Origin: an uncultured bacterium
Lineage (GTDB): Bacteria; Patescibacteriota; Minisyncoccia; Phycocordibacterales; UBA9973
DNA length: 52,708 nt
Assembly: GCA_903838985.1 (NCBI GenBank)
Contig: CAIMAO010000036.1
Span: forward strand, 1 to 52,708
Reading direction: 5' to 3'
Shown here: piece after piece, positions 16,383 to 32,098 of the stretch
Layout: the number at the start of each line of letters is the position of its first letter
Numbering within the stretch: position 1 is the stretch's first letter
Made by a program: the position numbers and the translations under genes
The notes under the pieces: model-generated
Told to the model about the DNA's origin: nothing
Databases searched by the model: none
The model's input: the letters and a program-made list of their open reading frames with translations, nothing else

Positions 16383-17504
16383 ATGGAAAATGAGGATATA
16401 AAAATTATAAAGAAACTGCTATTAACTCAAAAAAGAAAAGATTTGAGTGATTTTTTAACTGGATCAATTGGTGAAATAGAGCAAACTGGACAGTTTGGAA
16501 GCTATTGGAATTCCGTAATCTCTTTTTATAATATCTATCTGCCTTTAGATGCTTTTGTTAAAAGTAAAACTATTAATAAAGAAGATAAGAAAACAATTTT
16601 AGACGCAGTGCTTGATTTACATCCTCATGGTGATAGTGGTGTTGAAATTCAGGGAGTATTTTTTTACATACAAAGAGAAAATACAAGCGATAATATCTCT
16701 GAAGTAAAAAAGAATGATTTAGAATTAGGAGAACGTATCGAATTTGAAAAAAACATAGAAACACAATATAAGTTTCTAAATGAACAACTTGCAAAATCTC
16801 AAGAGCTTTTTGAAAAAGGTGATTTTCCGGGAGTTTTAACTTGCGTTCGATCCTCAGTAGAGGCTGCCACCTTTGATATTTTTAAAAGGATTACTGGTGA
16901 AGAGATATATGGCACAGGATCTCTTGGAGAAGATTATAAAAAAATACGAAACCTATTGAATTTGGCACCTGAAAATAAAACAAGTGCACACGCTAAAAAA
17001 CTGACTGCTTCACTTATAAGCATAATCGATGCAATTGATGAATTATCAAACCAAATGGGAGATAGGCATATTCAAAAGGTTGCTCCCGAAAGACATCATG
17101 CTTTATTATGCTTAAATTCAGGTAGGTCAGTTATTAGTTTTTTATACGCAAGTTTAATTTACCAATATAAAGAAAAAAATACCCTATATAAAGAAATTAC
17201 TGATTGCTTATATGAAGGTTCGAATCGTACCGAAATTCGAGAAGTTTTACTTGAAAAACCTAAACTGAAATTCATCTTTAATAGATGTGATGAATTTACA
17301 AAAGGATTGATTAAGAAAAAATTAATATCAGAATTTGAAATCAATCATTTTAAAGATAGTGATGTTTTCTTTAAAGCATTAGAACTTTTGGGAAATATTA
17401 ATAAAAAAGAAGATATTACTTTGGTAGAAAATAAATGTGCAGACAATAATCAAGCGTGTGGACTCAAAAACTTTTTAATAACATATAGCAACTTAACAAA
17501 CTAA
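16383..17504 (+). CDS. Abortive-infection C-terminal-domain (Abi_C)-like protein
   Basis: 373 aa. A central region (about 145-255) reads DFPGVLTCVRSSVEAATFDI, then ELSNQMGDRHIQKVAPERHHALLCLNSG in the order of the Abi_C domain: a helical module with RNxxGDxHG-like and RHAxLxxN motifs, seen at the C-terminus of phage-exclusion proteins and HEPN-related. Here the motif is NQMGDRH, without the usual Arg. About 110 further residues follow that are not recognised. The gene sits between tRNA-Gln and the serine recombinase and overlaps the recombinase 3' end by 12 bp, so it is probably defence cargo of the element. Confidence 0.6.
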   Translation: MENEDIKIIKKLLLTQKRKDLSDFLTGSIGEIEQTGQFGSYWNSVISFYNIYLPLDAFVKSKTINKEDKKTILDAVLDLHPHGDSGVEIQGVFFYIQRENTSDNISEVKKNDLELGERIEFEKNIETQYKFLNEQLAKSQELFEKGDFPGVLTCVRSSVEAATFDIFKRITGEEIYGTGSLGEDYKKIRNLLNLAPENKTSAHAKKLTASLISIIDAIDELSNQMGDRHIQKVAPERHHALLCLNSGRSVISFLYASLIYQYKEKNTLYKEITDCLYEGSNRTEIREVLLEKPKLKFIFNRCDEFTKGLIKKKLISEFEINHFKDSDVFFKALELLGNINKKEDITLVENKCADNNQACGLKNFLITYSNLTN

Positions 17505-18791
17505 CGAGACTTTCTTTTCCCTTAGTATTAATTTACTTTTCATACACGATAATAATTCTCGCTTTTCCATTAATGTTCCATCTTTTAGAAGATATTTTGC
17601 ATAATTTCTTGTATCTATATCTACAGGTATTTTTTCCTGCTGATGACCCAGTACTCCTGATCTAAATTTATTAAAACGTGCAATTTCGTCTTCAATTTTA
17701 GATTTGATTCCTAATTCATCTAAATCTATTTTATCCATAATTTCAGTCAATTCACTTATTAGATCTGATTCACTAATAGCAGGGTTTTTACAATCCACGT
17801 TTCTTCCTTTAGTACAATGATAATAAACATGTCTATTTGTACCACCATCTTTAAGTTTCTTGAATTTCTCATCTGCTGATATACCAGAACCACAATATCC
17901 GCAGTGTATTAATTTAGTAAAAGCAAACTCCTTACTCTCGGTTTTTGGAATGAAATGTTCTTTAATTGCTATTTGTGCTTTTTCAAAAAGTTCTTTATTT
18001 ATTATCGGTGTATGTCTTCCTGTATACCATTGTCCGCCATCTACTGGATATTCAAAGTCGCCATAATAAAATGGGTTTCTTAAGATTAAATATACATTAG
18101 CTAGTGCAAGTGGTTTACCTCGATGAGTTTTGAAATCTATTTCTCTGAGCCACTTATATACTTTTCTTCCACTCCATTGTTCGTCTGCCACTTTCTGGTA
18201 CATCTGTTTTATAACCATGCCTCGCTTTGGATCAACTCTGCATTGGCATTTTTTATCCACATGCTTTTCGTTTAAGTAGCCAGTTGGAGCCACTCCTGGT
18301 CTCCAACCCATCTCACATCTCGTTCGTAGTCCTCGCTTCACATTCACTGCCTTGTTGTCATTTTCGAGTTTTGCTTGTGATCCTAAAATCATCAGCAGGA
18401 ATTTTTCATTTGGGTTGTTGGTAAATTTCTGTCCGTATGTTTTTATCTCAATTAATTTTCCTTGATCCATTAAATCCACTATTGACCCCAAGTCGCCAGC
18501 ATTTCTACTTAACCTATCTGGTGCCCAAGTCAGAATGGCATTAAACTTGCCTTGTTTGATCTCAGCAAGCATCTCATTGTAAATAGGTCTTTGTCCGACT
18601 TCTTTTGATGAATGTGCTTCTCGCTTGATCTCTACTATGTGGAGATGGTCTCGCTCAGCTAAAGATTGCATTTCTTTTACTTGTGACTCTATTGAAAGAG
18701 CCTGTTTGTCCTCAGCCTCAGTGGATTTCCTAGAATACAGACAGTACTTAAGGGGTGCTACGGGGGCTTGTTCTGCTTGCTTATGTTTCAT
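17493..18791 (-). CDS. Large serine recombinase / integrase
   Basis: 432 aa. It catalyses site-specific DNA integration or excision. The resolvase domain has YSRKST with the nucleophilic serine near residue 22 and APDRLSRN. The 'recombinase' domain spans about 165-280, followed by a zinc-ribbon (CGYCG...CTKGRNVDC) and a short helical end. It is near the lower end of the large-serine-recombinase size range. It is the only recombinase seen in the island and sits close to the tRNA-Gln boundary, so it probably moved this DNA or part of it. The attachment sites were not identified. Confidence 0.93.
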   Translation of the reverse strand: MKHKQAEQAPVAPLKYCLYSRKSTEAEDKQALSIESQVKEMQSLAERDHLHIVEIKREAHSSKEVGQRPIYNEMLAEIKQGKFNAILTWAPDRLSRNAGDLGSIVDLMDQGKLIEIKTYGQKFTNNPNEKFLLMILGSQAKLENDNKAVNVKRGLRTRCEMGWRPGVAPTGYLNEKHVDKKCQCRVDPKRGMVIKQMYQKVADEQWSGRKVYKWLREIDFKTHRGKPLALANVYLILRNPFYYGDFEYPVDGGQWYTGRHTPIINKELFEKAQIAIKEHFIPKTESKEFAFTKLIHCGYCGSGISADEKFKKLKDGGTNRHVYYHCTKGRNVDCKNPAISESDLISELTEIMDKIDLDELGIKSKIEDEIARFNKFRSGVLGHQQEKIPVDIDTRNYAKYLLKDGTLMEKRELLSCMKSKLILREKKVSLVC

Positions 18792-18939: not shown

Positions 18940-20517
18940 ATGTCAAACAACAACCGTAAACAACTCCATGAAAGACTTTGGTCCGCAGCAATACAGCTTC
19001 GAGCAAATTCTAGTCTCAAGCTTAATGAAATGTCAGAGCCTATTCTGGGTTTAATTTTTCTAAAATTCGCTGATGTACGATTCAAGCAAGCACAAAGAGA
19101 AATAGAAACTGATAGAAAAAATGCATCTGGAAGACAAGCTCCAGTCACGCCTGATCACTATAAATCAAAAGGTGTTTTGTTTTTGCCTGAAATATCTATT
19201 TACTCATATCTTATGAGTCTTCCAGAGAGTAAAAACATTGGCAAAGCTATAAATGATGCAATGAAAGAAATTGAAGCAAAGAATACTGACCTCTCTGGTG
19301 TATTACCACAAGACTATACCTCTCTTCATAAGACTCCGGGAGAAAATAGCAAAATACTTATTGCTCTTCTAAAAAACTTCAATCAAATTCCGGACGACAT
19401 AGAGGGCGATGCTTTTGGAGAAATTTATGAATTCTTTCTTGGTGAGTTCGCACGTTCCGAAGGTGCTAAAGGTGGAGAGTTCTTTACGCCACCATCTATA
19501 GTAAAATTATTAGTAGAAGTCATTGAACCCTACAATGGAAAGATTTTTGATCCTGCCTGCGGTAGCGGTGGCATGTTCGTGCAATCTGCAAATTTCGTAA
19601 AATCACATTCTCAAAACAAAACACAAATAATGAATGAAGTGGCTTTATATGGTCATGAGAAAGTAAGTAGCAATATTCGTACAGCAAAAATGAACTTGGC
19701 TATTCATGGCCTTTCTGGAAAAATAGCAGAAGCTAATTCTTTTTATGAAGATCCATTTAAAAGTGTAGGAAAATTCTCGTATGTTCTGGCGAACCCCCCA
19801 TTCAATGTAAAAGGCAAAGATAAACATGGCCAAATAGTAATCGATCCAGCACGTATCAAGGGTGATCCACGCTTTTCTCTTGGACTACCTATCACAGGCA
19901 AAGGTGAAATTTCAAATGCCAATTATCTTTGGATGCAAATATTCATGAGTGCTTTAGATTCAAAAGGTAGAGCAGGTTTTGTCATGGCAAACTCAGCCAG
20001 TGATGCTGGTAATGCGGAAAAAGAAATCCGCAGAAAGATGATTGATGCAGGAATGGTAGATGTGATTATTTCTGTAGGCAATAATATGTTTATGAATGCG
20101 ACTCTTTCCTGTACGCTATGGTTTTTTGATAAAAGAAAAGTAGGTACTAATAGACAAAACAAAATTCTTTTTATAAATGTTCAGGATATTTTTACAGAGA
20201 TTGATAAAGCTCATAATGAGTGGACTCCGGAGCAAATACAAGAAATTGCTTCTATTGTTCGTAGATATCGGGAGGAAAAAGGCGAAGAAAAATACAAAGA
20301 CATAAAAGGCAGATGTAAAATGGCAACTCTAAAAGAAATAGAAGCCAATGATTATTCTCTCAATCCTGGACGTTATGTTGAGATTATAGAAAAAGAAATG
20401 AGTGATGTTGATTTTGATGAACGAATGAAAGAGTTGATGGATGAATTTACTGGTCTGACTACCGAAGCGCATAAACTAGAAAAGAAAATCACAAATGATT
20501 GGAAAACTATTTTATAA
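18940..20517 (+). CDS. hsdM: Type I restriction-modification methyltransferase subunit
   Basis: 525 aa. HsdM methylates adenine N6 as part of an M2S complex. The N-terminal helical domain (LHERLWSAAIQLRANSSLK) is followed by the catalytic domain with FFTPPSIVKLLVE, motif I DPACGSGGMF and motif IV NPPF. The C-terminal helical region contacts HsdS. Length and motif order are typical and nothing looks broken. First gene of the hsdM-hsdS-DUF4145-Shedu-hsdR run. The hsdS ATG follows the stop by 2 nt. Confidence 0.96.
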   Translation: MSNNNRKQLHERLWSAAIQLRANSSLKLNEMSEPILGLIFLKFADVRFKQAQREIETDRKNASGRQAPVTPDHYKSKGVLFLPEISIYSYLMSLPESKNIGKAINDAMKEIEAKNTDLSGVLPQDYTSLHKTPGENSKILIALLKNFNQIPDDIEGDAFGEIYEFFLGEFARSEGAKGGEFFTPPSIVKLLVEVIEPYNGKIFDPACGSGGMFVQSANFVKSHSQNKTQIMNEVALYGHEKVSSNIRTAKMNLAIHGLSGKIAEANSFYEDPFKSVGKFSYVLANPPFNVKGKDKHGQIVIDPARIKGDPRFSLGLPITGKGEISNANYLWMQIFMSALDSKGRAGFVMANSASDAGNAEKEIRRKMIDAGMVDVIISVGNNMFMNATLSCTLWFFDKRKVGTNRQNKILFINVQDIFTEIDKAHNEWTPEQIQEIASIVRRYREEKGEEKYKDIKGRCKMATLKEIEANDYSLNPGRYVEIIEKEMSDVDFDERMKELMDEFTGLTTEAHKLEKKITNDWKTIL

Positions 20518-20519
20518 TT

Positions 20520-21698
20520 ATGCAAAAAGTAGCATTTAAAACTGAAAAAGTTAAGAACCTACTTGAAAAAGTTAAAGGTCAAAGAAAAGTTCCAAAAGGT
20601 TCTTATTTTGAACTTGGAAAATATAAAATTGTTGATCAAGGAGAGGGTTTTATAAATGGATACACTAATGATGAATCACTTTTATATAAAGGTCCGATGC
20701 CAGTAGTGGTATTTGGTGATCATACTTGTAGACTAAAGTTTTTAAAACATTCATTTTGTTTAGGAGCAGACGGAACACAATTAATGTTTACAAAAAAACT
20801 TAATCAAACATATTTTTATTATGCACTTAAAAGTTTGGATTTTAAAATAAGTGCCTATCAAAGACATTATAAATTAATAAAAGAGAAATCAATTTTATAT
20901 CCAGAAAATAAAGAAACTCAAACTCGTATTGCATCTGTGCTTTCTTCCTATGACGATCTGATTGAAAAAAACGAAAAGCGAATCAAGATATTGGGAGAAA
21001 TGGCTCAACTTCTTTATATGGAGTGGTTTGTAAAATTTAAATTCCCAGGATACGAAAAGGTTAAAATGGTTGATAGTGGCACTGACTACGGGATGATACC
21101 AGTAGGATGGAAAGTGGTAGAGATGCGTTCAGTTGCAAAAATTATTGATTGTTTGCATACAAAAAAACCAAAACAAATTGAAACTGGGAGAAACTTATTT
21201 TTACAACTAGAAAATATTTTAGATAATGGAATGATTAATTTTTCTTCAACTTATTACATAAGTGACGAAGATTATAAGAAATGGACAAGTAATATCGAAT
21301 TACGAGAGGGTGATTGTGTTGTTACTAATGTAGGTCGCATTGCAGCTTCAGCTCAAATACCTAATGGTGTAATCGCAGCTGCAGGTAGAAACATGACTGT
21401 TATACGTCCAGAAAAAATACCAGCTAGTTTTCTAATCCAGTATTTACACTCTAGACATATGGAAAAAGAAGTATCTAGAAAAACTGACGCAGGAGCAATA
21501 ATGGGAAGTTTGAATGTTAAAAATATTTACTTACTTAAGGTATTAATTCCTGATAATTCTCTACTTGAAAATTATTCAAATTTAGTATCTATATGGAGAA
21601 ATGAAGCAAACACTCTTCATAAAGATAATTTTATCTTATCCCAAACCCGAGACCTTTTAATTCCACAATTAGTCACTGGAAAACGAGAATTGAAGTAA
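20520..21698 (+). CDS. hsdS: Type I restriction specificity subunit
   Basis: 392 aa from the ATG at 20520. The track start at 20499 is a TTG inside hsdM, so the ATG just after the hsdM stop is preferred. HsdS selects the two half-sites of the recognition sequence. Two target-recognition regions (about 20-130 and 195-330) are each followed by a helical spacer: TRIASVLSSYDDLIEKNEKR with LLYMEWFVKFKFPG, and LLIPQLVTGKREL at the end. The first TRD is short. The recognition sequence cannot be predicted. Confidence 0.92.
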   Translation: MQKVAFKTEKVKNLLEKVKGQRKVPKGSYFELGKYKIVDQGEGFINGYTNDESLLYKGPMPVVVFGDHTCRLKFLKHSFCLGADGTQLMFTKKLNQTYFYYALKSLDFKISAYQRHYKLIKEKSILYPENKETQTRIASVLSSYDDLIEKNEKRIKILGEMAQLLYMEWFVKFKFPGYEKVKMVDSGTDYGMIPVGWKVVEMRSVAKIIDCLHTKKPKQIETGRNLFLQLENILDNGMINFSSTYYISDEDYKKWTSNIELREGDCVVTNVGRIAASAQIPNGVIAAAGRNMTVIRPEKIPASFLIQYLHSRHMEKEVSRKTDAGAIMGSLNVKNIYLLKVLIPDNSLLENYSNLVSIWRNEANTLHKDNFILSQTRDLLIPQLVTGKRELK

Positions 21699-21706
21699 AA
21701 AATAAT

Positions 21707-22414
21707 ATGTCAAACAATAATTTTAAATGTAAATACTGTTCACACCATTCAACGATTACAAGTCCCGACCAATTTTCGCACTGGGAACAGATTGTTATAA
21801 ACGAATCAAAGCACGGATCAATTGGATTTCACTTGTATGCGATTACTTGTCCAAACCCCGATTGTAAAAAATTAACGCTAAAAGTATTATTGACCGACGC
21901 TGTTAGAAATCAAAGCACTGATTGGAATTGGAAAGCTAAACAAGTTCATCAGGAATGGCAATTACTTCCAGAATCAGAGGCGATAGTACTTCCTGAATAT
22001 ATACCGGAACCTGTACAGCAAGATTATTATGAAGCTTGTCGGATTAGGGATTTGAGTCCAAAGGCATCAGCAACTCTAGCTAGGAGATGTCTACAGGGAA
22101 TGATCAGAGATTTTTTCGGTATCAGTAAAAATAGATTAAAAGATGAGATTGATGCTATAGAAGATAAGGTAGAAGCCGATGTTTTCGCTGCTATTGATGC
22201 CGTACGAAATGTTGGAAATATTGGTGCTCACATGGAAAAAGACATCAACTTGATTATTGACGTAGAACCAAATGAAGAGAAATTGTTGATTGAATTGATC
22301 GAACAACTTGTTGAAGATTGGTATGTTTCCAGAAAAGGAAAACAAGATCGTCTATCAAAAATTACAGCACTCGCTAAATCAAAAGAAGATCAGAAGAAAA
22401 ATGAAGCAAATTAA
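21707..22414 (+). CDS. DUF4145-domain protein (HEPN-like), R-M associated
   Basis: 235 aa. An N-terminal zinc-binding-like part has CKYCSHH and CPNPDCKK. The C-terminal helical domain contains LARRCLQGMIRDFFG and VRNVGNIGAHM, the R-x4-6-H arrangement of HEPN-related DUF4145 domains, which often sit between type I R-M genes. HEPN proteins are frequently ribonucleases, but activity here is only a possibility. Its position between hsdS and the Shedu gene suggests an accessory role in the same defence operon. Confidence 0.8.
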   Translation: MSNNNFKCKYCSHHSTITSPDQFSHWEQIVINESKHGSIGFHLYAITCPNPDCKKLTLKVLLTDAVRNQSTDWNWKAKQVHQEWQLLPESEAIVLPEYIPEPVQQDYYEACRIRDLSPKASATLARRCLQGMIRDFFGISKNRLKDEIDAIEDKVEADVFAAIDAVRNVGNIGAHMEKDINLIIDVEPNEEKLLIELIEQLVEDWYVSRKGKQDRLSKITALAKSKEDQKKNEAN

Positions 22415-22417
22415 TTT

Positions 22418-23566
22418 ATGAAAAATTTAAATAAAATACATATTAAGAATAAGACTTTTGAAATAGATGTATTTTTATTTGATGATGTTTTAAGTAATTT
22501 AAAAAATAAGAAAAATAAGAAAAGTGGAGAGACCCATTTATCATTATTGCAATCAGGTAGAATAGCTAGAGGACTTAAACACTTACTACAGACACTGCAA
22601 GCAAAGGATAAAAATAAAAAAATTGTTCTTTTCACAAATGAAACAAAAACTGACGATGATTGCTGGTATATAAATCTGGATGAATATTCTGGTATTGTTA
22701 CAGGAAGATTTTACTCATTATATAGAGAAACTGGATTAGATGGAGCTTCTTTTTATCTTAACCAAAAAATTCCTGAACATTTTGATTATATTAAAAATAA
22801 AGTTAGTGAAAATCAATTAAAAAAAATTGGTTCTAATTTACCACAAACATTAGAAGATTTAGAAAAAAAAGCTAAAAACAAAAAAGTAATTTTAAAACAT
22901 ACTGCTGAATCTATAAAAAATTTAAAAGATCAAAAAGATGAATTAGCAAAATCAATTAATGAATTGAAAACTATACAGAATGAATCTACCTCAGCTGTGA
23001 TGAGGGTAAGTCTCAATCAATTAGACGAAAGACTTACTGGAGAGAAAAAATACAAAGAAACGAGTGGAAAAAATAATTGGCAAGACTGGATAAAAGAAAA
23101 TTCATGGATGATGGGTGTTAATTATCAGGAACCTATTGAAAAAACAAAAATTGGGTTTGATAATATACCTGATTATATGTTTCCAACTATTGATGGGTTT
23201 TTAGATCTTGTTGAAATAAAACTGCCTCAACATGAATGTATAAAAGAAGATGAACATCACCCTGGTTCGTTTATGTGGTCAGGAAAAACAAGCGAAGCAA
23301 TCGGGCAAGTTGTAAATTATTTATCTGAAATAGACAAAAATCACTACCAAATACAGGAAAGGATAAAAGAAAAATATAATATAGATTTAATTGCTATAAA
23401 ACCTAGATCATATATTATTGTTGGAAATTCTAATAATTGGGAACCAAAATTTAAAAAAGCTCTTAGAAAGTTAAATTACTCTCTACACGGAATAGAAGTA
23501 CTAACATACTATGATCTAAAATTAAGAGGAGAACAGATAGTTAAAATTTACGAGAAAAAATCATGA
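22418..23566 (+). CDS. sduA: Shedu-type anti-phage nuclease (SduA, DUF4263-like)
   Basis: 382 aa. Shedu is a single-gene defence system with a C-terminal PD-(D/E)XK-like nuclease. The C-terminal third matches its pattern: WQDWIKENSWMMG, IPDYMFPTIDGFLDLVEIKLP (catalytic D and ExK), then MWSGKTSEAIGQVVNYLSE. The N-terminal part is unrecognised, with a coiled-coil stretch at about 135-195. Its TGA overlaps the hsdR ATG (ATGA), so it is translationally coupled to the restriction subunit and not an independent cassette. Confidence 0.85.
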   Translation: MKNLNKIHIKNKTFEIDVFLFDDVLSNLKNKKNKKSGETHLSLLQSGRIARGLKHLLQTLQAKDKNKKIVLFTNETKTDDDCWYINLDEYSGIVTGRFYSLYRETGLDGASFYLNQKIPEHFDYIKNKVSENQLKKIGSNLPQTLEDLEKKAKNKKVILKHTAESIKNLKDQKDELAKSINELKTIQNESTSAVMRVSLNQLDERLTGEKKYKETSGKNNWQDWIKENSWMMGVNYQEPIEKTKIGFDNIPDYMFPTIDGFLDLVEIKLPQHECIKEDEHHPGSFMWSGKTSEAIGQVVNYLSEIDKNHYQIQERIKEKYNIDLIAIKPRSYIIVGNSNNWEPKFKKALRKLNYSLHGIEVLTYYDLKLRGEQIVKIYEKKS

Positions 23567-26500
23567 ACCCATTTAATGAAGACAATTTGGTAGAAAAGAC
23601 AGTCATCAAACTCATAAAGGAAATATGGGGTGATTCGAAGTGTCATATCAATGCATACAAAGACGAAGACGATTTGTTACTTGGACGAGACAATCAAGGT
23701 GAAGTGGTACTAAAAAAGTATTTATTGCCAGCATTACAGAAAATAAATCCCACCTTACCGGATGATGCACTAGCGCAAGCGATTGATGCTATTACTCGCG
23801 ATAGATCCAATTTGAGCTTAGTAAAAGCCAATCAAGAGGTTTATAAGCTCTTGCGTGATGGTGTAAATGTAAATGTTATACAAAGTAACGGAGATACGAC
23901 AAGCGAACGTGCGCGATTCTTTGATTTTGAAAAAGTAGAAAATAATGATTTTTTAATAGTGTCCCAATTGTGGGTAGTTGGAGAAATGTATCCTCGTCGC
24001 CCAGATATAGTGCTTTTTGTGAATGGTATACCTATTGTTTTATTTGAACTAAAAGCTTCACACAAAAGTTTAGTGGATGCATATCACGATAATTTGCGAG
24101 ATTATAAAGACACAATACCAAAACTGTTTTGGTATAACATGGGAATTATTATTAGCAATGGAATAGAAAACAAATTCGGCTCACTGACTGCTCCATTTGA
24201 ATTTTTTAATGAATGGAAGAAAATTGAAAAAGAAGAAGACAAGCCAAAAACTCATTTATCTACAATCCTTCATGGAATATGCAACAAAACACGACTACTG
24301 GATATTTTTGAAAACTTTATTTTATTTGAAGAATCAAAAGGTGGAATAAAAAAGATTGTTCCACGATACTTCCAATATCTAGGTGTAAATCTTGCTTTTA
24401 ACAATGTAGTGCGTCGCAAAGACTTGGATGGAAAGCTCGGTGTTTTTTGGCATACACAAGGCTCGGGCAAATCGTACTCTATGGTATGGCTCTCACAAAA
24501 AGTCTTGCGTAAAGTTACCGGTAATTTTACTTTCGTAATTGTGACAGATAGGACACAGCTAGATGGGCAAGCATATGACAACTTTGCCAATGTTGGAGTC
24601 ATCAACGAGACAGAGGTCCATGCTGAAAGCATTTCACATCTAAAAGAATTATTAGCACAAGATCATCGTCAGATTTTTACTACTATTCAAAAGTTTCAAG
24701 ATATTTCCGGTCCTATTTCAGAGCGTGAAGATATAATTGTGATGACCGATGAAGCACATAGAACACAATATGACCGTATGGCTTTGAATATGCGCAAAGC
24801 TTTACCAAAAGCATCGTTTATTGGATTCACCGGTACACCCCTTATGGCAGATGGTGAAGCTGAAACAGTAAAAACTTTTGGTACTTATGTATCAAAATAT
24901 AATTTCAGCGATTCAGTGCGTGATGGTGCTACTGTGCCCTTGTATTATGAAAATCGAGTGCCACGACTAAAAAATGTTAATGCCGATCTTGAGCAACAAC
25001 TGGGGCAATTGATGGATAAATATGATCTTGATGAAGATGAAGAAGAAAAATTGGAACGGGAGTATTCTAATTTTTATGAAATTATTACCCGAGAAGACAG
25101 ACTTGATACTATCGCTCGTGACATTGTGGAGCATTATGTAGGGCGAGGTTATGATGGAAAGGCAATGGTAGTTTCTATTGATAAGAAAACTACTTTCAGA
25201 ATGTATGACAAAGTAAAAAAAGAATGGGACCGTTATATAGCAAAACTCCGAATGGATCTTTCTCGTACCACAAACGAATACGAACATGAAAAGATTTTAG
25301 TAAAATTAGAACAACACGAAAAAGTAGATATGGCAGTAATGGTGAGCTTGGGTGGTAATCAAAATGAAATTGCTGATATGGCAGAATTCGGAATTGATGT
25401 ATTACCAATTCGTGAAAGAATTATTAAAGGAAATTTAGAAGAAGAATTCAAAAAGCCAAACAGCAACCTACGTATTATTTTTGTGTGTGCCATGTGGATG
25501 ACCGGCTTTGATGTGCCTAATCTTTCTACTTTATATTTAGACAAGCCATTAAAAAATCATACTTTAATGCAAACTATTGCTCGCGCAAACCGTGTAGCTG
25601 ACGAAGGCAAGAAGAATGGGTTAATTGTAGATTACATCGGTGTGTTCAAGAACATTGAGCGTGCCTTAGCATTATATGCGGCCAATGGAGTAGATGAAGA
25701 CGATATAATCAAAAGCAAAGACGAGCTTTTGAATGATTTAAAACACTCACTCAAAAAAGTAAAAGAATTTTTGAAAGTTGAAGAGATAGAATTAGATCCT
25801 CTACTCGAAGCTCCAAGTGAACAAAAATTATTACTCTTAGAAAAATATGCCAACACAATAATAGACCAGCAAGAAAAGAAAAAGGAGTTTTTAAATCTTG
25901 CAAGCGATTTACAAGGTGTTTATCGTTCAGTACTACCCGATCCAAATGCAGAAGATTACTACAAAGAAGTGACAGCTATCCGTGTATTAGCTTCACGTAT
26001 TCGTGATGTAGGGTCACAAAGCATAGATGTTTCTCAAGTAAAAAAAGATTTGGAAGATTTGCTCGATAAGTCAATTCAGACCGGTGAATATATCATTTCT
26101 GTACATAAAAAGATAAAAGACTTGAGCGTCCTTGATGCTGATGCATTGCATACTTTTTTTGCAGGTTTAGACAATAAAAATCTACAAGTAGAAGCAATGT
26201 CGGCTGAACTTGAACAAAAAATAACGGAAATGGTAAAGAGAAACAAAAAGCGCGCAAAATTTATGGAAAGACTTGTGTCGCTGTTACAAGAATATAATAC
26301 TGGTGCTCACGACGTGGACCAGCTATTTGATGACCTTGTTTCGCTTGCAAAAGATCTGAGTGAAGAAGAGCAAAGATCGGTAAAAGAGAATTTGAGTGAA
26401 GACGAATTAGCAATTTTTGACTTGTTAGTGAAAGAAAATTTGAATCCAGAAGAAGTGGCCAGTATTAAAGGGGCAACACACGAATTACTAATAAACCTTA

Positions 26501-26694
26501 AACCATTACTTGTACCGCACTGGAGGGACTTTGAAACAAACCGTGCTGGAGTAAAGATCGCTATATCAGATTTATTATTTACAAAATTACCAGAGCCAAC
26601 TTATACAGAAAAAGAATGTGAGCTAAAAGGATTTGAAATTTATAATTTTGTTTATGAACATTTCCAAGACGTAGGTAGATTGGATTATGCTTAA
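23563..26694 (+). CDS. hsdR: Type I restriction endonuclease subunit
   Basis: 1043 aa. HsdR cleaves DNA after ATP-driven translocation when bound to HsdM/HsdS. The N-terminal nuclease domain has RRPDIVLFVNG followed by LFELKAS (PD...ExK). The helicase motor has Walker A HTQGSGKSYSM, DEAH and GFTGTPL, with motif VI-like QTIARANRV. The long helical C-terminus is intact. Full length with no frameshift, so the R-M system appears functional. The start overlaps the Shedu stop. Confidence 0.96.
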   Translation: MNPFNEDNLVEKTVIKLIKEIWGDSKCHINAYKDEDDLLLGRDNQGEVVLKKYLLPALQKINPTLPDDALAQAIDAITRDRSNLSLVKANQEVYKLLRDGVNVNVIQSNGDTTSERARFFDFEKVENNDFLIVSQLWVVGEMYPRRPDIVLFVNGIPIVLFELKASHKSLVDAYHDNLRDYKDTIPKLFWYNMGIIISNGIENKFGSLTAPFEFFNEWKKIEKEEDKPKTHLSTILHGICNKTRLLDIFENFILFEESKGGIKKIVPRYFQYLGVNLAFNNVVRRKDLDGKLGVFWHTQGSGKSYSMVWLSQKVLRKVTGNFTFVIVTDRTQLDGQAYDNFANVGVINETEVHAESISHLKELLAQDHRQIFTTIQKFQDISGPISEREDIIVMTDEAHRTQYDRMALNMRKALPKASFIGFTGTPLMADGEAETVKTFGTYVSKYNFSDSVRDGATVPLYYENRVPRLKNVNADLEQQLGQLMDKYDLDEDEEEKLEREYSNFYEIITREDRLDTIARDIVEHYVGRGYDGKAMVVSIDKKTTFRMYDKVKKEWDRYIAKLRMDLSRTTNEYEHEKILVKLEQHEKVDMAVMVSLGGNQNEIADMAEFGIDVLPIRERIIKGNLEEEFKKPNSNLRIIFVCAMWMTGFDVPNLSTLYLDKPLKNHTLMQTIARANRVADEGKKNGLIVDYIGVFKNIERALALYAANGVDEDDIIKSKDELLNDLKHSLKKVKEFLKVEEIELDPLLEAPSEQKLLLLEKYANTIIDQQEKKKEFLNLASDLQGVYRSVLPDPNAEDYYKEVTAIRVLASRIRDVGSQSIDVSQVKKDLEDLLDKSIQTGEYIISVHKKIKDLSVLDADALHTFFAGLDNKNLQVEAMSAELEQKITEMVKRNKKRAKFMERLVSLLQEYNTGAHDVDQLFDDLVSLAKDLSEEEQRSVKENLSEDELAIFDLLVKENLNPEEVASIKGATHELLINLKPLLVPHWRDFETNRAGVKIAISDLLFTKLPEPTYTEKECELKGFEIYNFVYEHFQDVGRLDYA

Positions 26695-26703
26695 TGAATA
26701 ATT

Positions 26704-27045
26704 ATGGAAAATAAAGATCTAGAAAAAATAATAAGTAAAAACAAGTTGGTTGGAAAAATTCACTTCGCAATTATTTTAGTAGATAAAAATATAATGTTTC
26801 GTGTTTTTCCTTTGTATATAAGATATTCAAAAAATGACAAGGTAATAGCTATTTTATTTTTTAGTGGTAAATTTGTAAACTCAGGTGAGTTAGTCATGGG
26901 ACTAAATTTAGATAAAAAACCCAAACTAACAGGATTTAAGGATGCTAAATTTATGAAGGATTCTAATCTAACTTATAGTTACATTTTTAAAGAAACAGCA
27001 GTTTCTAATAATTTTATTTCTAAAATAATTAAATTAATTAAATAA
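26704..27045 (+). CDS. Hypothetical protein, defence-operon associated
   Basis: 113 aa, basic, with several beta-prone hydrophobic stretches (HFAIILVDKNIMFRVFPLYI) and no clear membrane helix. It is not confidently recognised; a DUF5655-like fold is a weak possibility. It begins 9 nt after hsdR and ends 4 nt before the nuclease at 27050, so it belongs to the same transcription unit. Confidence 0.65.
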   Translation: MENKDLEKIISKNKLVGKIHFAIILVDKNIMFRVFPLYIRYSKNDKVIAILFFSGKFVNSGELVMGLNLDKKPKLTGFKDAKFMKDSNLTYSYIFKETAVSNNFISKIIKLIK

Positions 27046-27049
27046 TTTT

Positions 27050-27805
27050 ATGTCTGAATACTACAAACCAAATAGAGGATCAGCTTGGAATTATGGAGGC
27101 AAACAATGGAAACTGAGTCGTTCCAAAATTGATTTGTTTTTACAGTGCCCTCGATGTTTTTATATAGACAACAAACTAGGTACAAAGCGTGTACCAGGGT
27201 TTCCTTTTAATATAAACACTGCCGTTGATACATTGTTAAAAAAAGAATTTGATATTCATCGTGCAAAGGGAGAACAACACCCGTTACAGAAAGAATACAA
27301 GATAGATGCTAAGCCTGCACCTCATGAAGAACTAGATGAGTGGAGGAGAAATTTTGGAGGTATCAGACACGAACATGAAGCAACTGGATTGATAGTCACT
27401 GGTGCAATTGATGACTTATGGATAAATAGCAAAGGAGAATATATTGTTGTGGATTATAAAGCAACTGCTGGTGAAAATGCTATTAAAGAACTTAGCGACG
27501 AAAAAGAACATCACAAGGGATATAAGCGACAAATGGAAGTTTATCAATGGCTACTTCGGCAGAATGGTTTGAAAGTTTCTGATATTGGGTATTTTGTTTA
27601 TTGTACAGGAACAACAGATCGAGAGGCTTTTGATAAAAAAATTGATTTTGATGTAAATCTTATTGAATATAAAGGAAAGGATTCCTGGGTAGAAAAAACT
27701 TTATTCAAAATTAAAGAATGTTTAGAGAAAGACACTATCCCAAAGACAGGAAAAGACTGTGATTGGTGTGCCTATTGGAACGCTAGAAAGGAATTGGAAA
27801 AATAA
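27050..27805 (+). CDS. PD-(D/E)XK nuclease, Cas4/RecB-like
   Basis: 251 aa. LSRSKIDLFLQCPRCFY near residue 25 is the N-terminal cysteine-containing motif of Cas4/AddB-type nucleases. Asp in GAIDDLW, then EYIVVDYKAT, supply the D and (D/E)xK catalytic residues, and QMEVYQWLLRQNG is motif IV. The C-terminus has DCDWCAYW, which with the N-terminal cysteines could hold an Fe-S cluster. No CRISPR array or cas1/cas2 lies nearby, so a stand-alone defence or repair nuclease is more likely than a Cas4. Confidence 0.85.
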   Translation: MSEYYKPNRGSAWNYGGKQWKLSRSKIDLFLQCPRCFYIDNKLGTKRVPGFPFNINTAVDTLLKKEFDIHRAKGEQHPLQKEYKIDAKPAPHEELDEWRRNFGGIRHEHEATGLIVTGAIDDLWINSKGEYIVVDYKATAGENAIKELSDEKEHHKGYKRQMEVYQWLLRQNGLKVSDIGYFVYCTGTTDREAFDKKIDFDVNLIEYKGKDSWVEKTLFKIKECLEKDTIPKTGKDCDWCAYWNARKELEK

Positions 27806-28431: not shown

Positions 28432-28563
28432 ATGGATGAAGAAACTTTTGAAATAGCTAAAGATAATGATTTAAGCTTTGAAGAGGCAGAACAGCTTCAA
28501 GAAGTTATTGACGATACAGGACTTGATGCGGAAGATGCATTAGAAATTTCGCAAGATTTATAA
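28432..28563 (+). CDS. Acidic 43-aa microprotein (copy 1)
   Basis: Too short for the ORF track. ATG at 28432, TAA at 28561-28563, starting MDEETFEIAKDNDLSF and ending ALEISQDL. It has 17 Asp/Glu and one Lys in 43 residues. A paralogue at 32549-32680 is identical at 31 of 43 positions with mostly conservative changes, so the frame is under protein-level selection. Three short helices are likely. Possible roles are DNA mimic, antitoxin-like partner or adaptor; the sequence does not decide. Confidence 0.8.
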   Translation: MDEETFEIAKDNDLSFEEAEQLQEVIDDTGLDAEDALEISQDL

Positions 28564-28574
28564 TAATATAGCTG

Positions 28575-28604
28575 TTGATAACTCGACTACACAAATTTTA
28601 TGAT
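28575..28604 (+). promoter_or_regulatory. Candidate promoter of the structured RNA
   Basis: TTGATA (28575-28580), 18 nt, TATGAT (28599-28604). A second possible -10, TATAAT, lies at 28639-28644, just after a CCTCT/AGAGG hairpin (28624-28638). Either would start a transcript upstream of the RNA fold. Confidence 0.4.
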
Positions 28605-28660
28605 CTAAGCTAGGATGGCAGAACCTCTAAAAAAGAGGTATAATTTCTTTACAAATTAAT

Positions 28661-28834
28661 AGACGACCTAACCCCTTAGAATTTCTAAGGATATGGTCGA
28701 AAGTCCTATCAAGCGTAAAAACCCCGTCATGGGTTCGCTTGATAGGCCATATTGGGAAACCAATATGAGAGGCTTCGGTCTCTGCCCGTGATGGGATTTT
28801 GCGTCTCTATCGGTAATTATTAAGACCTATCAAG
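28661..28834 (+). ncRNA. Unassigned structured RNA with pseudoknot
   Basis: A 5' hairpin: CGACC/GGTCG (28664-28668/28695-28699) around CCTTAGA/TCTAAGG. Helix a: CCTATCAAGCG (28705-28715) / CGCTTGATAGG (28736-28746), 11 bp. Helix b: GTCATGGG and the upstream CCC and AAAA pair with CCCGTGATGGG-A-TTTT (28785-28800), crossing helix a as an H-type pseudoknot. Two hairpins lie between: CATATTGG-GAAA-CCAATATG (28748-28767) and AGAGGC-TTCG-GTCTCT (28768-28783). GNRA and cUUCGg loops show the plus strand is the RNA. CCTATCAAG recurs at 28826-28834 before the next ATG. It matches no RNA class I know. Confidence 0.7.
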
Positions 28835-28840
28835 TACCTT

Positions 28841-29305
28841 ATGAACCCAGCAGAAGAAATAGTAAAATTTTGGTTACAAAATAAAGGGTGTTTTATGCAG
28901 TCTTCTATTCGCTTACCCAAAAACAAGGAGATAGACATTTTAGCTGTTGATGAGAATGGAAATAAAAGTCACATAGAGGTATCCGTTTCTGTGAGAATGG
29001 CTAATTACACATTAAATGCAACACAAAAGGCTAGAGAAGTTTATGAACATAAATTTAACTCTGTAAAAGAGGAGGTGAAAAATAGAATTGGCAAAAAGTA
29101 CCAAAAGAAATTCATTGCTGGTAATGTATCGTATAAAAATAAAGATATAACATTAGAGTTTACGGAGGAATGTAAAAAATTAGATATTGAAGTGATTCTT
29201 TTTAAAAACATTCTCAATGAAATTAGACCTTTATTGGGAACAAATTCTCATTTGAATTCAACGATTAAAGCTGTTCAACTAACAGAAGTTTTTGAAAGAA
29301 AATAA
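28841..29305 (+). CDS. Small restriction-endonuclease-like protein
   Basis: 154 aa. KEIDILAVDENGNKSHIEVSVSVR near residues 27-50 looks like a PD-(D/E)XK core (ExD...ExS), with the usual catalytic lysine of ExK replaced by serine. The nuclease call is therefore structural rather than certain. NEIRPLL with a helical tail ends the protein. It starts 7 nt after the CCTATCAAG repeat of the structured RNA and converges on the terL-like gene with a 1-bp gap. The RNA could be its 5' regulator, guide or antitoxin. Confidence 0.65.
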   Translation: MNPAEEIVKFWLQNKGCFMQSSIRLPKNKEIDILAVDENGNKSHIEVSVSVRMANYTLNATQKAREVYEHKFNSVKEEVKNRIGKKYQKKFIAGNVSYKNKDITLEFTEECKKLDIEVILFKNILNEIRPLLGTNSHLNSTIKAVQLTEVFERK

Positions 29306-29306
29306 A

Positions 29307-30371
29307 TTATTCAAACACATTTCGATTTGAATTATTAATGACGATCGTTTTTAAGTTAGTATCGTTAACAGTTGGTACGCTTATATGATATCCAAGTAAT
29401 CCAGCATGGATTCTATCTGCTTTTTCTTTTTTCTGCCTTATCTTTTTGTTTTGTTTTTTTACTTCTATATTTTCCGAATTATCATAATTCTTAATAATAT
29501 TAATAACTCTATTTTCTCCAATAGTTAATAAATATTCTCGTTTCCAAACAGCCTCGTCTGATATTGTTTTCTTAAGTTTTCCGATATTCGCCATTGTTTT
29601 AAACTTTTCTAGCCACATAATTTTTTCATTATCATCCAACAATGGATATGCTCTAAAAATACCATTCATCTTTTTTTCTTTAATTTGTTCTTTGAGTTTT
29701 ACAAGCAATGAATCTCCACTAATTAGATTTCCTAGGACAATTATTCTAGTATCTTCATTACCTAATGGAAGGATTTCACTCACAAAGCGGTTGTACATAT
29801 TTTCACTTATCTTTTTATCTTCAAATGAAAAACTATCTTCTAGATCATCACAGATAATTAGATCTGGTCTGTTAGCTCCGTATTTAAAACCACGTACACT
29901 TTGTTCTCGCGAAACACAAACAATCTTTGACCCATGATATTCAAGTTCCAAGGATAATTTTTTCCAAACTGATTCATTCCCATGAAAAGGTCCGAAGTCT
30001 TCTTTTAGTAAAGGGTTGTGTTCCAGTTCTTCTTTGATGTTTGCAAAGTGAGTTTTGGCTTGCTCTTGGGTTTGCCCAACAATAACAATAAATTTATTTT
30101 GTCTGGTACCTAAAATTGACCACAGAGTGTTTGTAGTATTCATTATTGTAGATTTTCCAGAATTTCTGAAAGCCATAATTGTTATTAATTTGTTTCTTGA
30201 ATCACGCAACAATTTAAACATATCTTTCTGAAAAGGTGCTAAAGGAAACTCCATATACTTACGCATATATATTAGGAAAAACCATAACGGATCTTCGTAT
30301 GCCAATTTTTGTCTCAATTTTTTATTCTGAACAATTAAGTCTAATTCTTTTTTACTTATTTCTTTTCCCAT
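29307..30371 (-). CDS. Phage terminase large-subunit-like ATPase, C-terminally short
   Basis: 354 aa. TerL proteins pump phage DNA into capsids. Here FQKDMFKLL, Walker A-like AFRNSGKST, Walker B DLIICDDLED and the coupling stretch RIIVLGNL mark the terminase ATPase domain. Typical TerL proteins have 450-600 aa with an RNase-H-like nuclease domain at the end. This one ends in a lysine-rich stretch and an unrelated tail with no visible nuclease acids. It is the last gene of a minus-strand trio and overlaps the TerS-like gene by 20 bp. No capsid or portal genes are nearby. Confidence 0.82.
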   Translation of the reverse strand: MGKEISKKELDLIVQNKKLRQKLAYEDPLWFFLIYMRKYMEFPLAPFQKDMFKLLRDSRNKLITIMAFRNSGKSTIMNTTNTLWSILGTRQNKFIVIVGQTQEQAKTHFANIKEELEHNPLLKEDFGPFHGNESVWKKLSLELEYHGSKIVCVSREQSVRGFKYGANRPDLIICDDLEDSFSFEDKKISENMYNRFVSEILPLGNEDTRIIVLGNLISGDSLLVKLKEQIKEKKMNGIFRAYPLLDDNEKIMWLEKFKTMANIGKLKKTISDEAVWKREYLLTIGENRVINIIKNYDNSENIEVKKQNKKIRQKKEKADRIHAGLLGYHISVPTVNDTNLKTIVINNSNRNVFE

Positions 30372-30777
30372 AATTTTTTATACCTCCAGTAGAAAAAGTC
30401 AAAGCTTTCCTAAAGAGCTTTTCTTCTCGAGGATTTAGATCAACATCAATAGGTCTAACTGTGTCAATTTTATACTTACTACCATAGATTGGGTGGTGAT
30501 GTTTTAACCATGTGGTAATAGCTGGCATTTTCTTTTCTCTAATAAGCTGGATAATTTGCGATTCACTCATGTCATTGATAAATTCAAAACCTTGAGCAAG
30601 TGAAGCTTCAGTTTGTCGAAGAAAATTAATATCTTCTTTTCTCCAACGGTAATATGTAGCTCTGCTAACACCAGCTTTCTTGCAAGCTACTTGGATAATC
30701 GGCATCTCCTTGAGAGTTTCAAGGAGTGCCAATTTATCTTTTTCAGTTCTCTCTTCAATAGTTGGATCAGTTTCCAT
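30352..30777 (-). CDS. Terminase small-subunit-like HTH protein
   Basis: 141 aa. The helix-turn-helix ACKKAGVSRATYYRWRKED near residues 32-50, then a helical middle and a basic tail, resemble small terminase or phBC6A51-like DNA-binding proteins encoded before terL. It overlaps both neighbours (11 bp with the methyltransferase, 20 bp with terL), which suggests coupled translation as in phage packaging operons. A transposase-type regulator with a similar HTH is the alternative. Confidence 0.75.
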   Translation of the reverse strand: METDPTIEERTEKDKLALLETLKEMPIIQVACKKAGVSRATYYRWRKEDINFLRQTEASLAQGFEFINDMSESQIIQLIREKKMPAITTWLKHHHPIYGSKYKIDTVRPIDVDLNPREEKLFRKALTFSTGGIKNYGKRNK

Positions 30778-32098
30778 ATATTTTCTTTGCAGTTAATCCT
30801 GTAAATTTTTCCCATCTTTTTAGAATAACTTCTGTGTAGACTGGAGACTTTTCCATAAGATAACAACGGCGATGCATCTTAATTGAGGCAATTAAAGTGG
30901 ATCCTGAGCCTCCAAATGGCTCAACAATGAGATCATCTCGTTTGGTGAGTACTTTGATATATGGGATGAGAATTTCAAGGGGTTTGGTGCCGAAAATAAT
31001 TGCTTGACCAGAACTTTTTTCATCGGATGCTTTAAATTCGATAAAGTCAGTTGGACAATACTTTTTTCCTTTACCATAGCTTTCCCAATGTGGACGACCT
31101 GAAGTTGCAAATAAAGCTGTTTCATAATCTGTCTGCAATAACTCATCTGATTCAGGTTCTTCGTTCAATTCGATCTTTCCCGAAGTACCAAGCATAGCAA
31201 AATCATATTTGTTGAAGAATTTATATTTTGCTGAGAAACCTTGAACACGATTAGGTAGATGCCACACAACTGTGTTTCTATACTTCCAGTGTTTTTCCAA
31301 TTCATTCCAAATAGTACGAAGATTTTTAGGATTTTCGTATATCATGATTGAAAAATCTTCTTTCTGAATTTTTGCAATATTTGCCATCCATAATTCAGTA
31401 AAGTTATCAGGTAAAGATTCTGTACCTAAATAAATACGATCACGCTTTAATCCAAATCCTTCAGTTACTTTTCCATTTTTTTTCTTTTTACCGTTAAGGT
31501 AATCAAGAATGTAAGGCGGATCAGTTAGACACATATCTGCTTTTTCATTTTCCATTAGTTTAATGATGTCTGTTTCGGACATTGAGTCTCCACACATCAC
31601 TCTTGACCCATCAAGTTCATAAACATCGCCCTCTTTCACATTTATCTGATCTATCTTCAACTTTTTCAATTCGTTGTTGAGATCAAATTCTTCTGGTGTA
31701 GGTTCTAACTCAAAAATTGAATCAAGGTCTTCGCTAGAAAAACCAATATCTGATAAGAATGTCTCATCAAACGTTTTAAGAATATCCCAATCAAATTCGC
31801 CAGTGTTTTTGTTTAAACGAATATTCAATTCTTTCTCTTTTTCAATATCGGGAATATTAATATAGACTACTGGTACATTTTCTATACCTAGTTCTTTTAT
31901 TACCGACAACCTAAAGTGTCCACCGATAACAATATTTTTTCTTTCTTCTGCAGAGTTTACTAGAAGCGGATCAACGATTCCATATTTTCTAATACTTTCT
32001 TTTAATTGATTTTCTGCTTCTTTATCCCACTTGCGGGGATTGTAATCTGAGGCTTGGAGATCGTTTACAGATACGTACACAATATTTAATTTATCCAT
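30767..32098 (-). CDS. ParB-nuclease-domain/DNA methyltransferase fusion
   Basis: 443 aa. The N-terminal ParB-like domain (LQASDYNPRKWD, IVIGGHFRLSVIKELG; residues about 1-110) is fused to a beta-class amino-methyltransferase with catalytic motif DPPY near residue 193 and SAM-binding EPFGGSGSTLIA near the C-terminus. Such ParB-MTases are common in phages and integrated elements, usually next to terminase genes as here. It is the first gene of the minus-strand trio, behind a 450-bp regulatory gap with a minus-strand terminator hairpin. No partner restriction enzyme is evident, so it may protect the element or mark DNA. Confidence 0.93.
   Translation of the reverse strand: MDKLNIVYVSVNDLQASDYNPRKWDKEAENQLKESIRKYGIVDPLLVNSAEERKNIVIGGHFRLSVIKELGIENVPVVYINIPDIEKEKELNIRLNKNTGEFDWDILKTFDETFLSDIGFSSEDLDSIFELEPTPEEFDLNNELKKLKIDQINVKEGDVYELDGSRVMCGDSMSETDIIKLMENEKADMCLTDPPYILDYLNGKKKKNGKVTEGFGLKRDRIYLGTESLPDNFTELWMANIAKIQKEDFSIMIYENPKNLRTIWNELEKHWKYRNTVVWHLPNRVQGFSAKYKFFNKYDFAMLGTSGKIELNEEPESDELLQTDYETALFATSGRPHWESYGKGKKYCPTDFIEFKASDEKSSGQAIIFGTKPLEILIPYIKVLTKRDDLIVEPFGGSGSTLIASIKMHRRCYLMEKSPVYTEVILKRWEKFTGLTAKKIYGN

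Follow-up and report, generated by a model that had tools for sequence, protein, structure and literature searches.

The LOOT RNA as a probable leader of cargo genes in prophages and related islands of Patescibacteria

The structured RNA directly upstream of a small nuclease-like gene in the 52,708-nucleotide stretch of DNA analysed here (the window) belongs to a known family, LOOT, and we consider it likely that LOOT acts in cis as a leader that controls how cargo genes of prophages and related islands in Patescibacteria are translated. Computational comparison of its copies suggests that it is probably a general switch for such genes and not the partner of one nuclease. We met no earlier report of the 3' strand of its pseudoknot, of its apparent role as an mRNA leader or of the putative switch pairing at the start region. 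Together, the leader placement, the missing pseudoknot strand and the expression platform make LOOT a directly testable switch and possibly a new riboswitch-like class. In Patescibacteria, a group without genetic tools, it would offer a candidate for an RNA that controls genes.

Identity and fold of the RNA

The original prediction placed the RNA in an unknown class, but a cmscan search against Rfam returned a known one: positions 28665-28783 of the plus strand matched RF03000, LOOT, with 89.3 bits (gathering score, 46.4; E-value, 1e-15). LOOT is entered in Rfam under the type Gene; sRNA, and a literature search, whose reach did not extend to the original description, found no function for it. 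It is therefore a family without an explained function, not an unclassified RNA. Both the E-value and the loop-tail helix described below, when set against partner-swapped controls, place the observed features far beyond chance. The source genome is patescibacterial: its DnaX-like protein has its best relative, at 75% identity, in a Candidatus Nomurabacteria. It carries three copies of LOOT, which was found in 67 of 149 relatives; in wider samples it occurred in 74 of 285 genomes of the class and 83 of 379 of the phylum, and a single genome could have as many as seven copies. None was detected in 14 well-known control genomes.

The predicted elements of the fold, namely an 11-bp helix (P2), a second long helix between its loop and the tail, and hairpins closed by GAAA and UUCG tetraloops, were all present (Table 1), and the strand had been read correctly from the tetraloops. 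Covariation also supports P1, P2 and P3. In an unconstrained scan of alignment columns from 26 diverse copies the pseudoknot was the best-covarying helix in LOOT, even though the Rfam model does not reach its 3' strand. Taken as a helix of 17 pairs, it was 92% paired and showed two-sided changes at 12 pairs, and the covariation signal was destroyed when the whole structure was slid by one to three columns. An alignment-free comparison of own with swapped partners gave z = -23 for 94 non-redundant relatives, z = -18 for 52 class and phylum loci and z = -22.7 for 90 copies with independent P2 sequences. The pseudoknot also contains conserved G-U pairs.

Similarly, the small hairpin P2b scored z values of about -10 to -13 against swapped partners, with z = -10 in both the relatives and the class and phylum set. 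P2b and the pseudoknot use the same strand of the loop and are mutually exclusive; that both are nevertheless supported suggests two states. There was no sign of a long-range helix that would close the 5' tail onto the downstream region (z = -0.3). An intrinsic terminator built on the U-run of the pseudoknot strand was considered and rejected, as these U's pair with A's and on inspection the run was absent from many phylum-level copies.

Table 1. Features of the LOOT locus and its surroundings (positions in the window)
Feature	Position	Strand	Basis or remarks
Large serine recombinase	17493-18791	-	55% identity to the recombinase next to LOOT in an IMG/VR contig
-10 promoter box TATAAT	28639-28644	+	Alignment of the regions ahead of 129 LOOT copies
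Putative transcript 5' end (about 28651) and conserved single-stranded ACAAnUUAAUA	28651-28661	+	
P1 hairpin	28665-28698	+	28665-28668 with 28695-28698; 28674-28679 with 28685-28690; cmscan alignment, covariation
P2 5' strand CCUAUCAAGCG	28705-28715	+	Pairs with 28736-28746
Pseudoknot 5' strand, in P2 loop	28716-28733	+	Core CCCGUCAUGGG 28723-28733; AAAA 28717-28720
P2b hairpin inside P2 loop	28720-28735	+	28720-28724 with 28731-28735; Rfam structure
P2 3' strand CGCUUGAUAGG	28736-28746	+	28738-28746 can alternatively pair with start region 28826-28834
P3 hairpin, GAAA tetraloop (28756-28759)	28748-28767	+	cmscan alignment, covariation
P4 hairpin, UUCG tetraloop (28774-28777)	28768-28783	+	cmscan alignment
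Pseudoknot 3' strand	28785-28801	+	Core CCCGUGAUGGG 28785-28795; UUUU 28797-28800; beyond the Rfam model
Copy of P2 5' strand, CCTATCAAG	28826-28834	+	Ends 6 nt before ATG 28841; proposed switch target
LOOT-led gene, 154-aa PD-(D/E)XK-like protein	28841-29305	+	Model pLDDT 77; weak Foldseek matches
TerL (short, 354 aa), TerS-like HTH protein and ParB-N/DNA methylase, facing the cargo gene	29307-32098	-	

Leader position and predicted pairing with the start region

The gene that follows LOOT shares its strand in 97 of 100 copies from relatives and in all 52 from the class and phylum (149 of 152), its start codon a median of 57 nt downstream of the end of the LOOT model; the genes upstream are mixed. 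When the upstream regions of 129 copies were aligned on the motif ACAAnTTAATA, TATAAT appeared at -12 to -7 before it, an extended -10 box ending six bases ahead of the motif. Because such an alignment is partly self-selecting, a control with shuffled motifs was run: 115 of 154 copies had at least 8 of 11 matches to ACAAnUUAAUA no more than 30 nt upstream, as compared with at most 82 for shuffled motifs. The LOOT transcript probably begins at this motif. The 5' hairpin of the original prediction does exist (28623-28639), but it lies upstream of this putative start, and therefore it is probably not part of the LOOT RNA.

From the order of promoter, RNA and ATG, LOOT would lie in a 5' UTR, as a riboswitch does, and would serve as an mRNA leader across Patescibacteria. 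This does not agree with the stand-alone sRNA implied by the Rfam type, a point that bears on annotation and not on family membership. Shine-Dalgarno-like 4-mers were rare in the last 20 nt before the ATG (1 of 43 loci with the start-region copy described below, 9 of 105 without), so that initiation seems not to use such a sequence. Attenuation through a leader peptide was rejected, since the open reading frames starting at the AUG of P1 span 2 to 322 codons and none is conserved.

In the window, CCTATCAAG occurs at 28705-28713, within the P2 5' strand, and again just before the nuclease ATG; a repeat at this place had been predicted, with a distance of 7 nt to the ATG instead of the actual 6. 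Outside LOOT's own P2, this 9-mer matches only one start codon in the whole genome. Exact repeats of the P2 5' strand of at least 7 nt precede the start codon in 44 of 152 copies, as compared with 58 of 5978 swapped combinations (about 1%), and are absent in the other 108; they end 0-7 nt before the start codon, and the direct repeats at LOOT loci are 9-16 nt long. Among copies with independent P2 sequences, 19 of 89 matched their own start region, against a mean of 0.5 after swapping. Since the P2 5' strand is repeated there, the P2 3' strand has two possible partners, its regular one and the start region. Pairing with the start region scored z = -16.5 in relatives and z = -10.3 in the class and phylum set, with negative controls near 0 (largest, z = -2.0). 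A wobble test of RNA pairing against DNA identity did not discriminate, as the copies match P2 by identity and hold too few internal differences.

The tail strand of the pseudoknot also has an alternative partner in the spacer (z = -8.8 and -10.9 in two groups of copies). For the 108 copies that lack the start-region copy this weaker pairing is a group statistic, and in the window itself the tail-spacer pairing was not above background (-11.0; median, -10.8). Pairing of the tail strand with the start region was weak where the copy is missing (z = -4.3). In an energy model that left out the pseudoknot, P2 and the alternative state were 2.5 ± 2.6 kcal/mol apart, a near-equality that follows in part from the start-region sequence being a copy of a P2 strand. 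The alternative helix in the window is predicted to extend over the start codon. Computationally, a conserved fold would compete with an expression platform in the manner of a riboswitch.

We propose that transcription begins at ACAAnUUAAUA and that, in the ON state, P1, P2, P3 and P4 would form, a pseudoknot of 12-17 bp would pin the P2 loop to the tail and the start codon would be left free. In the alternative, OFF state the tail strand would pair with the spacer, and P2b could form; in about one-third of the copies, the window's included, the P2 3' strand would also leave its partner and pair with the copy before the start codon. A ligand, a protein, temperature or the state of the phage might tip the balance. 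Within single genomes the P2 sequences are unrelated (0 of 65 pairs share 7 nt), which would keep the switches private. We also entertain, tentatively and as somewhat less probable than its opposite, that LOOT forms a new class of leader RNA that senses a signal, on temperate phages and their remnants throughout Patescibacteria, in which one common phage or host signal would gate any attached cargo gene, while the private pairing of P2 and start codon would avoid cross-interference within the cell.

Downstream genes and alternative explanations

The 148 proteins encoded downstream of LOOT formed 88 clusters and represented more than 40 Pfam families, none of which occurred in more than two clusters. 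They are unrelated to each other and mostly membrane or surface proteins; their genes encode methyltransferases, nucleases, superinfection immunity proteins, surface lipoproteins, zinc-ribbon membrane proteins and secreted proteins. The DNA-methyltransferase cluster is uniform, with the start-region copy in use in all seven members; other gene clusters are of mixed type. A shared theme pointing to a common ligand, as expected of genes under a riboswitch, was not found in these 88 clusters, so that no signal can be read from the genes, and one aptamer-like domain ahead of such diverse mobile genes would be unusual. The sequence of P2 ACTCGCTACAAG together with its start region recurred before different genes in several genomes (loci L055, L058, L076, L077 and L094, and nearly the same in L128), which suggests that the leader moves between cargo genes.

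With downstream genes so diverse, the nuclease of the window is one cargo among many. Its product had no Pfam match above the cutoff and is probably PD-(D/E)XK-like: the order of elements in the model fits the alpha-beta-beta-beta-alpha-beta core, and the Foldseek matches, all weak, fall in this superfamily (SfsA, EndoMS, Card1 and restriction enzymes). In the D...ExK motif D and E are conserved, and the usual K is replaced by S (ExS) in all three homologues. A search for relatives by peptide patterns found none in viral and genome contigs.

It had been suggested that the RNA guides, inhibits or regulates this protein. Regulation stands in the sense of cis-control of the translation of whichever gene follows, not as a partnership with this nuclease. 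A guide, antitoxin or inhibitor of the adjacent protein would account for the adjacency, and the pairing is not meaningless, because a homologue with 50% identity in another genome also lies behind LOOT, there without the P2 copy. A more distant homologue has no LOOT, however; nuclease homologues are rare and LOOT is common, most copies precede unrelated, often membrane, proteins, and LOOT stands as a single copy, not in tandem repeats. We therefore regard this explanation as hardly credible. A free small RNA acting in trans, perhaps as an antisense RNA through the P2 3' strand, would agree with the Rfam type, the RNA's own promoter and its self-contained fold, but is quite improbable given the same-strand gene directly behind nearly every copy. 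In addition, the P2 sequence of the window precedes only LOOT's own ATG, that of the C6 copy precedes none, so that for the two copies tested no target beyond their own gene was found in their genome, and cross-matches between LOOT copies of one genome amounted to 1 of 129.

The great heterogeneity of the downstream genes, their lack of a common metabolic theme and the clear promoter would also suit a passive leader, one that makes the mRNAs of mobile genes more stable or insulates them and whose alternative pairings are folding intermediates that answer to no signal. For such a leader it would be costly to keep exact start-region copies in many lineages, as well as a P2b and a pseudoknot that exclude each other yet covary separately, and we give it a small though real chance. 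That LOOT acts instead as DNA, as a site of prophage recombination, packaging or deletion with short direct repeats as its ends, might be read from the repeats themselves and from the many loci at which it stands between a recombinase gene and a terminase gene. It seems very unlikely: the GNRA and UUCG tetraloops and the conserved G-U pairs point to RNA, the repeats always end just before the start codon and the promoter has a fixed place.

The preferred reading, a cis-acting translational switch, can be compared with known systems. The loci analysed here share the P1-P4 architecture and sequence of the Rfam family, whose model stops before the pseudoknot strand and the expression platform; they have both, and lead a gene. 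With translational riboswitches and other 5' leader switches LOOT shares the position in the 5' UTR, a compact pseudoknotted fold, mutually exclusive helices and the sequestration of the start region. It differs in that no ligand is on record, the genes have no common pathway and the sequestering strand belongs to a stem of the fold itself, with a second copy of its partner at the start codon. In erm-type translational attenuators, alternative pairings form a chain, and a strand that is not paired upstream blocks the start region; a similar chain is proposed for LOOT, which in contrast has no conserved leader peptide. Type III toxin-antitoxin RNAs (ToxI-like) likewise place a pseudoknotted RNA directly upstream of a nuclease gene, but LOOT occurs once per gene, without tandem pseudoknot repeats or a fixed toxin partner, and unlike the RNAs of CRISPR and OMEGA systems it has no dedicated effector nuclease as a constant partner. 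GOLLD and ROOL are also structured, prophage-encoded RNAs without known function (PMC12286853); they are much larger, often lie near tRNA islands and form RNA-only nanocages, whereas LOOT has about 140 nt and leads an mRNA.

Prophage-like context

A phage-marker gene was present within about 5 kb in 70 of 100 LOOT loci, whereas among 40 control stretches taken from these genomes only 2 had one (p = 4e-13); the markers were found by similarity to a few queries, so that 70% probably understates the share, and "prophage-like" is the cautious term for these surroundings. In three IMG/VR viral contigs LOOT lies beside genes for terminase, a ParB-methylase and a large serine recombinase; one viral pattern match, L190, had no LOOT. 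The usual layout has the recombinase upstream and divergent, and TerL and mostly TerS downstream, facing the cargo gene.

In the window this layout is accompanied by a short TerL and by type I restriction genes, and therefore the region may be a decayed prophage. The genes of this type I restriction system, followed by a Cas4/PDDEXK_1-like nuclease, occupy 18940-27802, between the serine recombinase and LOOT. TerL (29307-30371) has 354 aa, whereas that of viral contig L192 has 481 aa. The stops of TerL and the nuclease are 2 nt apart, an arrangement that looks like replacement of the C-terminal end of TerL by the cargo gene. Between a 206-aa protein and the LOOT promoter there is a very acidic open reading frame of about 43 aa (28433-28563, MDEETFEIAKDNDLSFEEAEQLQEVIDDTGLDAEDALEISQDL), which could encode an antitoxin or an anti-restriction peptide. 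At the third LOOT copy of the source genome (L036, 5226-6077) the divergent upstream neighbour encodes a 283-aa protein without assignment, and a second type of large serine recombinase lies further upstream.
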